This document shows, one piece after another, positions 14,630 through 17,218 of a DNA stretch of 64,000 nt (positions within the stretch are counted from its first letter, which is position 1; the number at the start of each line of letters is the position of its first letter). The stretch spans positions 124,001-188,000 of the forward strand of contig JAENZN010000005.1 in assembly GCA_016841245.1 (NCBI GenBank), read 5' to 3'. Source of the DNA: Syntrophomonas sp. (GTDB lineage: Bacteria > Bacillota > Syntrophomonadia > Syntrophomonadales > Syntrophomonadaceae). A program made the position numbers and the translations under genes. A model generated the notes under the pieces. The model was not told the DNA's origin. It saw only the letters and a program-made list of their open reading frames with translations, and did no database searches.

Positions 14630-15715
14630 ATGGGGATTATATCTAAAAAACAGATAATTATGGTTTCCCTTCTCCCGGGAGGAATATTATTAACCTGGCT
14701 TTTGGGCTACATACCTGAAATGGTCGAGAAACTGTATTCTAATGGATTTTATAGAATATTGGGGCCAGTTTTGAGCAGACTTACCGGTTTAGTTCCATTA
14801 TCAATAGCTGAACTACTCACCTTGATCGCCTTACTGGCTTTGGCTTGCTTTATGATCAAGTATTTAGTAAACATGGTCAGAAGAACCTCATCGCCTAAGA
14901 TTGTACTTGCAAGAGCAGCAGTTTTAATGCTCGTGGTAGGCAGCATAGTATACTTTACCTTCTTGCTAATATGGGGGTTTAATTATTATCGCCTTCCTTT
15001 TGCGGATATTGCCGGTTTAGATACTGCCGATATAAGGGCCGAGGAACTTGAGGTACTATGTACAGAGCTTATCCAACAGGCTAATGAACTGCGTGCTGCA
15101 GCTGCCGAAGATAATAACGGAGTAATTAGTATAGCTAAACAAGAAATACTGGAACAGGCCTGGCAGGGTTATGCTTTGGCCGAGTCCATGTATCCAGAAC
15201 TGGGAGGGACTTACGGCAGACCTAAAGCGGTAATTTCATCGAGAGCCATGTCGGTCTTCGGGATATCAGGGATATATTTCCCTTTCACCGGGGAAGCCAA
15301 TCTTAATATGGAAGTTCCGGCCCCTCTTTTTCCGGCTGCGGTGTGTCATGAAATGGCTCATCAACGAGGATTTGCGCGAGAAGACGAAGCTAATTACATC
15401 GCTTACCTTAGCTGCCAAAAGCATACTGATCCTTTTTTTCAGTATTCAGGTACTCTCTTGGCCCTCATTAATTCAATGAATGCCCTGTCAGCTTATGACT
15501 ATACCCAATATCTGGAGTTAAGGCAGGGGTACGCAAAGGGAGTTGAGCGGGATTTGTCTGCCGTACAACAGTTCTGGCAGCAGCACCAGGGACCTGTTTC
15601 CAGGGCTTCGGCCCGGGTAAATGACGTTTATCTAAAAACTAACCACCAGCAAGATGGTATAAATAGTTACGGCAGGATGGTAGACCTTTTAGTCGCAGAA
15701 AGAAGAGAGCTTTAG
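14630..15715 (+). CDS. DUF3810 family membrane protein with HExxH motif
   Basis: This protein of about 361 aa has three hydrophobic segments in its first 125 residues (about 10-28, 58-80 and 93-118), then a large domain on one side of the membrane. That domain contains HEMAHQRGF, a zincin-type HExxH, and EANYIAYLSC, whose glutamate could be a third ligand. It fits the DUF3810 family; the function is not established, although a membrane metalloprotease is plausible. ATG 14630 has AGTGGG about 8 bases upstream; a GTG at 14624 is an alternative. Confidence 0.8.
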   Translation: MGIISKKQIIMVSLLPGGILLTWLLGYIPEMVEKLYSNGFYRILGPVLSRLTGLVPLSIAELLTLIALLALACFMIKYLVNMVRRTSSPKIVLARAAVLMLVVGSIVYFTFLLIWGFNYYRLPFADIAGLDTADIRAEELEVLCTELIQQANELRAAAAEDNNGVISIAKQEILEQAWQGYALAESMYPELGGTYGRPKAVISSRAMSVFGISGIYFPFTGEANLNMEVPAPLFPAAVCHEMAHQRGFAREDEANYIAYLSCQKHTDPFFQYSGTLLALINSMNALSAYDYTQYLELRQGYAKGVERDLSAVQQFWQQHQGPVSRASARVNDVYLKTNHQQDGINSYGRMVDLLVAERREL

Positions 15716-15739
15716 AGCTAACAGGAGGTACGGTTCTAC

Positions 15740-15856
15740 ATGGTAGTCTTTAGCCGAAAAGATGACAATCCAGAACCCCAAGTGCATTTAGAAAATGCGG
15801 AGTGGAAAGCAGTGAAAAATAAATTAATATTTTTGGATTGGGGGGAAATAATATAG
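15740..15856 (+). CDS. Small hypothetical protein (38 aa)
   Basis: This short frame was chosen because a strong AGGAGGT lies 10 bases upstream of its ATG, just after the DUF3810 gene. The product begins MVVFSRKDDN and ends in DWGEII; it is charged, with no signal or membrane segment. I recognise no family. Its stop codon is two bases before the inverted-repeat element at 15859, so a transcript would run through that element to the terminator at 16043. Confidence 0.4.
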   Translation: MVVFSRKDDNPEPQVHLENAEWKAVKNKLIFLDWGEII

Positions 15857-15858
15857 CT

Positions 15859-16031
15859 AAGATGTAAAATTGCCGGGCTAAGAATCTCATATACCAACAG
15901 GTGTATATGATTCGACTTGAGGTTAATGCAGAGGTGTGAATTTCTGTATTGGTCGATGAGAAGGCCTGATGTAAATCCATCTATACAACAACATTGCATG
16001 GAGGGATACAAAAAAGGCAATTTTACATCTT
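15859..16031 (+). ncRNA. 173-base element closed by perfect 16-bp inverted ends
   Basis: AAGATGTAAAATTGCC (15859-15874) is the exact reverse complement of the sequence at 16016-16031. The inside holds further hairpins: GAATC-T-CATATAC with GTATATG-ATTC (15882-15913) and AATGCAGA with TCTGTATT (15925-15950). As RNA this is a multi-branched fold closed by a long P1 helix, directly followed by an intrinsic terminator. As DNA it also fits a miniature inverted-repeat element. There is no ORF inside, and I match no known riboswitch. Confidence 0.55.
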
Positions 16032-16042
16032 TATATATATAC

Positions 16043-16067
16043 AGCCTTCACGGAAGGCTATTTTTTT
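16043..16067 (+). terminator. Intrinsic terminator after the 173-base element
   Basis: AGCCTTC and GAAGGCT enclose a 3-base loop and are followed by A and seven T residues. Confidence 0.85.
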
Positions 16068-16262
16068 GCCTATTTATATTTTATTGATTGCAATATTAAT
16101 CAGGTTTGATCCATGAATAATTTTAGCCAGTTTCTATCGTGAGCTGTCCTCATAACGGCGTTTCCTGAACGTGGAAAACCTTTCTTGTGCTATGATAATT
16201 ATTACGGGCATGTATATTGGCAGGATTGACTTATATTGGCCAGGTAATGTTAAGGAGAAAAC

Positions 16263-16643: not shown

Positions 16644-16741
16644 TTCTGGTAGGTCCACGAATAAATAGCAGGGGCTTAACAGATAGAAGTGAAGATGCTT
16701 GAAAAAGCAGTGGGAGTAAAAATTTTGAGGAAGTGAAAATA

Positions 16742-17218
16742 ATGATCATCAAAGTTGAGGGGGAGGAGCAGATAGAATCTATCAGGGGATTATTTCTGGA
16801 ATATGAGCAATCCCTACCTTTCAGCTTATGATTCCAGGGTTTTAATGAGGAACTGGCAGGTCTGCCAGGGGAGTATTCTAGACCAGACGGAGTGCTATTG
16901 TTATATGAATGGCAAGGCCGGGCAGCAGGGTGTGCCGGCTTAAAGAAAATCGACTCTGATATATGTGAGATGAAAAGGCTCTATGTAAGGCCCGCATTCA
17001 GAAAGAAGGGTATAGGAAAGAAGTTGGCTTTAGAAATTATTAATGAAGCCAGGATTATTGGATACCAATATATGCGATTGGATACGCTGGCTTCTATGCA
17101 GGAAGCCGTTCAATTGTATGAGTCGCTGGGTTTCAAGTACATAGTACCCTATAGATATAATCCTCTGCCAGATGCTTTATACCTGGAATTAAAATTGGAT
17201 ACTGATATCAGGCAGTAA
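16742..17218 (+). CDS. GNAT acetyltransferase with in-frame TGA (possible selenoprotein or pseudogene)
   Basis: Translation from ATG 16742 (after GAGGAAGTG) gives a GNAT-fold protein of 158 residues if the TGA at 16829-16831 (codon 30) is read through. Both sides are in the same frame and protein-like: the TGA sits in SL-stop-FQGFNEELAGLPG. Downstream come the acetyl-CoA loop (RKKGIGKKLA) and the SLGF motif. In relatives I recall, the interrupted position is often cysteine (LCFQ). Centred 27 bases downstream is CTGGCA-GGTC-TGCCAG (16853-16868), a hairpin with the GGUC apical loop typical of bacterial SECIS elements. The same bases encode conserved LAGLP, so the palindrome may be accidental. 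Alternatives are a nonsense mutation or a sequencing error. Confidence 0.6.
16853..16868 (+). promoter_or_regulatory. SECIS-like hairpin inside the GNAT gene
   Basis: A six-bp stem with loop GGTC lies 27 bases after the in-frame TGA, within the window used for bacterial SECIS elements. The apical GCAGGTCTGC is, from memory, identical to that of E. coli fdhF. Confidence 0.4.

Follow-up and report, generated by a model that had tools for sequence, protein, structure and literature searches.

The element at positions 15859 to 16031 of the window (the whole 64-kb stretch of DNA that was analyzed) is almost certainly a conserved structured RNA and very probably belongs to a family of much larger RNAs. 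The explanation that we favor, with moderate confidence, is that it is a reduced member of a large structured RNA family of endospore-forming Bacillota, transcribed in the forespore and acting in trans, probably as a scaffold. The conserved fold, the spread of the RNA, a promoter motif upstream of 72 of the 130 copies, an association with spoIVA, and the lack of a constant neighboring gene were computed directly. The place of the element as the reduced form of a larger RNA with forespore-type promoters is not visible from the window alone.

The two ends of the element, AAGATGTAAAATTGCC at 15859–15874 and GGCAATTTTACATCTT at 16016–16031 (plus strand), are complementary at all 16 bases, as an earlier note on this DNA had claimed, and form the closing stem P1. 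No other perfect inverted repeat of at least 12 bases with a spacer of 80–220 bases is found in the whole 64-kb window, and 20 composition shuffles of the window gave a mean of 0.7 twelve-base matches. When folded as plus-strand RNA, positions 15855–16035 reach −63.3 kcal/mol, compared with −36.8 ± 4.38 for 200 dinucleotide shuffles (z −6.05), none of which was as good; the minus strand gives a z of −4.55. The hairpins said to be enclosed by the ends are present in this fold: P2 (15882–15913, plus strand) and P3 with its flanking conserved linkers (15916–15960, plus strand), both supported by covariation over 6 sequences and over 99 matches, and further structure at 15970–16010 (plus strand), which alignment with copies from two genomes of the same genus, G003 and G001, identifies as a P4 remnant plus an extra hairpin. 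That extra hairpin is common to the window and G003 and missing from G001, and 33 alignment columns that in G003 contain the 3′ part of P4 are empty in the window copy. In the minimum-energy fold of the window copy, the P2–P3 domain is closed by an alternative helix spanning 15875–15967 on the plus strand (GGGCU at 15875–15879 with GGCCU at 15963–15967), whereas in the G003 and G001 folds P2, P3, and P4 are closed together. A canonical intrinsic terminator begins 11 bases past the element, where it had been placed before (16043–16067, plus strand; stem 16043–16049 with 16053–16059, AGCCTTC-acg-GAAGGCT, and T run 16061–16067); its stem and T run are kept in G003, and a different inverted repeat takes their place in G001. 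The 38-codon frame described as preceding the element does exist, at 15740–15856, but it is not conserved. Nothing in Pfam matches it, and in the closest relative, G003, it is not preserved, the frame of a DUF3810 gene extending there through part of the stretch; we therefore rejected it as a gene. No match to Rfam 15 at the gathering score was detected in the window, and a permissive E-value scan of 15700–16150 gave matches all far below that score.

A DNA search of 61 genomes with the element detected copies in G003 and G001; weak matches in G034, G022, and G057 (E about 0.005) were taken as chance. The covariance model R1, built from the window, G003, and G001 copies, finds the element in all five genomes of the window's genus, including G002 and G004, and in each of the five it lies 3′ of a DUF3810 gene (Pfam PF12725) on the same strand. 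The copies of the relatives fold with z-scores of −7.17 (G003), −7.14 (G001), −8.16 (G002), and −7.07 (G004). P1 forms 16 of its 16 pairs in the window, G003, and G001, 15 in G002, and 13 in G004, with compensatory changes at pair 2 (A-U to G-C in G002 and G004), pair 4 (A-U to G-C in G002), and pair 14 (G-C to A-U in G002). The window genome holds a single full-length copy, the remaining listed matches being 15–47 bases long. One conserved copy with covariation is what the earlier note had set as the outcome for an RNA and not a mobile element, and its suggestion of a new structured RNA with a long P1 and multiple branches is borne out by the orthologues and their covariation. Its other suggestion, a miniature mobile element with inverted repeats and a terminator, could draw on the perfect terminal inverted repeat and on the tandem copies in some genomes (two in locus L141, 689–1609, plus strand, and three in L175, 435–1846, minus strand, about 490–508 bases apart), but with no second full copy, an orthologous position in five of five species, ends that covary as a helix, and a two-linker family pattern (described below) that matches no viral contig, it is hardly credible.

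In the window, G003, and G001, the element is followed by a DUF1232 gene in the same orientation. There the element stands between two same-strand genes, with a terminator intervening, an arrangement that would suit action in cis, either on the DUF1232 gene as a leader or riboswitch or within the 3′ UTR of the DUF3810 messenger RNA. Against this, the next gene in G002 and G004 is another one, on the opposite strand, and in the family as a whole the closest ORF downstream lies on the same strand in 60 and on the opposite strand in 89 of 149 cases. The flanking genes are diverse, with the commonest neighbor cluster comprising 14 loci, and a constant same-strand downstream gene, as a riboswitch or leader would have, was not found across the family. 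Cis-regulation was therefore rejected for the family, and for the element itself it is very improbable. Also in the window, a GNAT acetyltransferase region (16733–17218) is split, with a stop codon inside 16802–17215 and a Pfam match to the 3′ part, 16892–17215.

R1, which rests on the genus only, also matches G008, from another genus of the same family (E 7.0e-4 per genome and 4.4e-6 within the fetched loci), and the match is the start of a far larger structure, of which a 441-nt stretch has a folding energy of −200.9 kcal/mol (z −16.66). R2, a covariance model of the P2–P3 core from six sequences, the window's genus included, finds G007 at 1.3e-9 and matches 30 of the 398 phylum genomes sampled; its matches L034 (in G074, E 0.057) and L035 (a second one in G002, E 0.085) were taken as chance. 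Double changes occur in 10 of the 29 pairs of the R2 alignment, a number that none of 500 shuffles reached, while its count of further pair types was equalled by 20 of 500. A search of named genomes with a two-linker pattern, which fixes parts of the linkers J2/3 and J3/4, returned at least 120 stretches, and a sequence profile confirms the large RNA family in 119 of them; the lone stretch without a profile match, L071 (titled Promineifilum), was taken as chance. Carriers among the matches listed are Pelotomaculum, Desulfosporosinus, Desulfofundulus, Desulforamulus, Carboxydocella, Thermoanaerobacterium, Tepidanaerobacter, Propionispora, Lucifera, Clostridium lacusfryxellense, Thermohalobacter, and Sporotomaculum, together with many metagenome-assembled Bacillota. 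The species Carboxydocella thermautotrophica, Desulfofundulus thermosubterraneus, and Thermoanaerobacterium saccharolyticum are among the carriers.

The core covariance model R3 was built from 99 matches, again with the window's genus included. In the alignment of these matches, 25 of 29 pairs are double-changed, in 627 cells against 161 in shuffled alignments, and none of 500 shuffles does as well, although these counts favor the structure because the sequences were fitted to a model of that same structure and include three second, internal matches (L087, L118, and L148). R3 finds the RNA in 163 of the 398 sampled phylum genomes and 113 of 267 genera at a threshold of E ≤ 0.01, at which about 4 of 398 would be expected by chance; 150 of the 163 matches reach 1e-5. 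Absences in this survey are soft, since the phylum searches scored the best 10 candidates per genome. Six genomes of one family (f51: G110, G148, G182, G237, G261, and G433) gave weak but consistent R3 matches, with E from 7e-6 to 2e-3, perhaps a diverged branch of the RNA.

From 138 full-length matches, 8 that were identical to another or held an N were dropped, and the remaining 130 distinct sequences were folded together with RNAalifold. The full RNA is about 420 nt long and consists of the closing stem P1 and five arms, P2 to P6, that meet at one multi-way junction. P4, P5, and P6 each comprise an inner and an outer helix, mostly of 15–16 bp, and paired bases make up about three quarters of each molecule (153 pairs over 438 columns). 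Over the 130 sequences, 95.2% of cells pair, against 73.9% in shuffled alignments, and double changes occur in 130 of the 153 pairs (4414 cells against 1252 shuffled); these figures come from a set that keeps near-identical, nonindependent rows and from a structure derived from that same alignment. P5 and P6 are tipped by GNRA tetraloops in 107 and 111 of the 130 sequences, respectively, while the other loops vary, including the hairpin loops of P2, P3, and P4b. The linkers between the arms are alike and purine-rich (GUCGAGCUAAGAU and similar); conservation of J2/3 and J3/4 arises partly by selection, as the search pattern fixes parts of both, whereas the helices and the other linkers lie outside the pattern. 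The core profile has further matches in later parts of the same molecule, so that the arms resemble repetitions of a single theme. In 86 of 151 copies, the RNA is followed by a T-rich stretch.

The window's genus retains only P1, P2, P3, and, in four of the five species, a P4-like arm, and most of P4 is lost in the window copy. The G001 copy consists of P1 and three arms, to which the G003 copy adds one hairpin. The two-part arms P5 and P6 with their GNRA tips are absent, and we therefore regard the genus as carrying a reduced relative of the large RNA. A core profile made without the window's genus and without loci L026, L031, and L033 was run in the reverse direction: it recovers G007 (8.3e-23) and G008 (2.6e-16), finds G001 at E 2.6e-4, and reports the window (E 0.3) and G003 (E 0.33), both at the right place and strand, with G004 reached only at E 3 and G002 not matched. 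These modest scores mean that the case for membership of the genus in the family owes more to structure and to chained searches than to sequence. Loss of the arms, including most of P4 in the window copy, together with a strict promoter motif in none of the five genus members (see below), would also suit an eroding relic, a functionless copy degenerating in this genus, and the window copy may be decaying. That reading is unlikely, because all five genomes of the genus have the element, its folds there are strong (z −6 to −8), and it shows compensatory changes in P1, P2, and P3.

The −35 box consensus for forespore sigma factors (sigma-F/sigma-G) is GNATA. A first forespore pattern occurs upstream of 58 of the 130 copies (shuffled mean 4.7, maximum 10), and a combined sigma-F/sigma-G motif occurs in 72, its −35 box always starting between −38 and −31 from the first position of the profile, and is absent from the other 58. 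The same combined motif was found in a mean of 1.4 and a maximum of 5 of the 130 when the upstream sequences were shuffled, in 1 of 130 copies on the reverse strand, and upstream of 4 of 477 other ORFs at the same loci. The pattern was composed after inspecting the upstream regions, but its near-fixed position and the controls make chance implausible. Simple sigma-A, sigma-K, and sigma-E patterns, all strict, matched none of the 130 copies. The strict motif is found in none of the five copies of the window's genus and a relaxed motif in three. The window copy is preceded by a weak −35-like box, TAATA (15825–15829, plus strand), which fits the relaxed motif only, with T in place of G as its first base, and, 14 bases further on, by a −10-like box, GGAAATAATA (15844–15853, plus strand), that fits GGNNANNHTR. 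We consider expression of the family in the forespore likely.

The distribution of the RNA also links it to sporulation. The same 398 genomes were surveyed for spoIVA with TIGR02836, which matches 336 of them, including the window's genome. A spoIVA match is present in 160 of the 163 RNA-bearing genomes and in 176 of the 235 others (Fisher 9e-12, with genomes treated as unrelated), the three RNA-bearing exceptions being G137 (97% complete), G291 (75%), and G337 (61%). As the 176 spoIVA genomes gave no RNA with 10 candidates scored per genome, sporulation in general does not depend on the RNA. All three genomes of family f46 that have both carry the RNA core at 326–349 bases from spoIVA, in convergent orientation (G105:C6, G352:C1, and G413:C27).

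Precedents exist for the broad types, large structured RNAs and forespore small RNAs, while the class matched no known RNA among those tested: Rfam 15 at the gathering score gave no matches in 20 family loci, and E-value scans of 5 and 6 family loci gave nothing near that score over the RNA. One of these scans shows a partial TPP riboswitch match in locus L037 (3040–3098, minus strand; 39.7 bits, under the gathering score) that is truncated by the end of the locus. We found no description of the large RNA in the open-access papers searched, so that a description elsewhere, in subscription papers or preprints, is possible. OLE RNA is similar in being a large structured RNA of mostly anaerobic or extremophilic Bacillota, but it has no Rfam match at the gathering score in the 20 loci, and published work ties it to growth under stress. 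ROOL and GOLLD have ornate helices in common with the large RNA, and their self-assembly, as reported in PMC12286853, is a model for one reading of it, but neither has an Rfam match in the window or the 20 loci. The raiA motif RNA is likewise widespread and structured in Bacillota, according to PMC11706538, but its Rfam family is not found at the gathering score in the 20 loci.

Closest in behavior is Bvs196, a sporulation small RNA of Bacillus velezensis and a homologue of B. subtilis S357/S547. In its published account (PMC9147052), Bvs196 is a structured RNA of about 294 nt, an independent unit located between hinT and ecsA and expressed specifically in the forespore under sigma-F and mainly sigma-G, and deletion of bvs196 lowers heat and UV resistance. 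Bvs196 was not found to be homologous to the large RNA: in the hinT–ecsA region of 12 EcsB loci from Bacillus-like genomes, a presumed orthologue site taken from the location given in PMC9147052, R3 has no match at E ≤ 10 and a 16-sequence profile has none. Six of the 12 loci were inspected by eye; in L204 the region is mostly coding, and in L202, L203, L205, L206, and L207 several copies of CACCTCATTT lie upstream of ecsA on the ecsA strand (GAGGTG on the other strand), a repeat that occupies the region assigned to Bvs196 in PMC9147052 and whose complement resembles a ribosome-binding site. CsfG of the Bacillaceae, as described in PMC3574147, is a sporulation-specific, conserved, trans-encoded forespore RNA, but at 136 nt with CU-rich loops it is set apart by description from the large RNA, which is about 420 nt long and whose linkers are purine-rich.

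The main rival to our explanation is drawn from these RNAs: a trans-acting antisense regulator like Bvs196 or CsfG that would pair with spore messenger RNAs through its loops and linkers. The promoter class and an independent transcription unit, as in the account of Bvs196 (PMC9147052), and the conservation of single-stranded linkers agree with it. We consider it unlikely, because conservation lies in long perfect helices and in the linkers of the junction, the hairpin loops of P2, P3, and P4b are the variable parts, and most of the molecule is paired.

In the explanation that we favor, a reduced member of a forespore RNA family, the RNA would have a transcription unit of its own, read in the forespore by a polymerase carrying sigma-F or sigma-G, and would act in trans, with a rigid scaffold as its most likely role. 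The scaffold might gather proteins at its repeated linkers or join other copies through the tetraloop tips, and the RNA may thereby serve spore maturation or dormancy, with the window's genus keeping a reduced version. The trans-acting scaffold, taken by itself, is a tentative proposal that we hold at somewhat below even odds. A bolder and doubtful form of the proposal is a spore-core RNA particle, a rigid body with a six-way junction, regular 15–16-bp arms, and GNRA tips, made in the forespore only, assembled with copies of itself or with spore proteins, and aiding dormancy of the core in more than 100 genera.

If the favored explanation is right, this is a large and widespread RNA class that has no Rfam family even though its core model matches 163 of 398 phylum genomes, and it belongs to the forespore, a cell type with few understood RNAs. 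The RNA is single-copy in many genomes, and its regular architecture makes it a cryo-EM candidate alongside OLE, ROOL, and GOLLD. The reduced form in the window's genus would show which parts of the RNA are dispensable.
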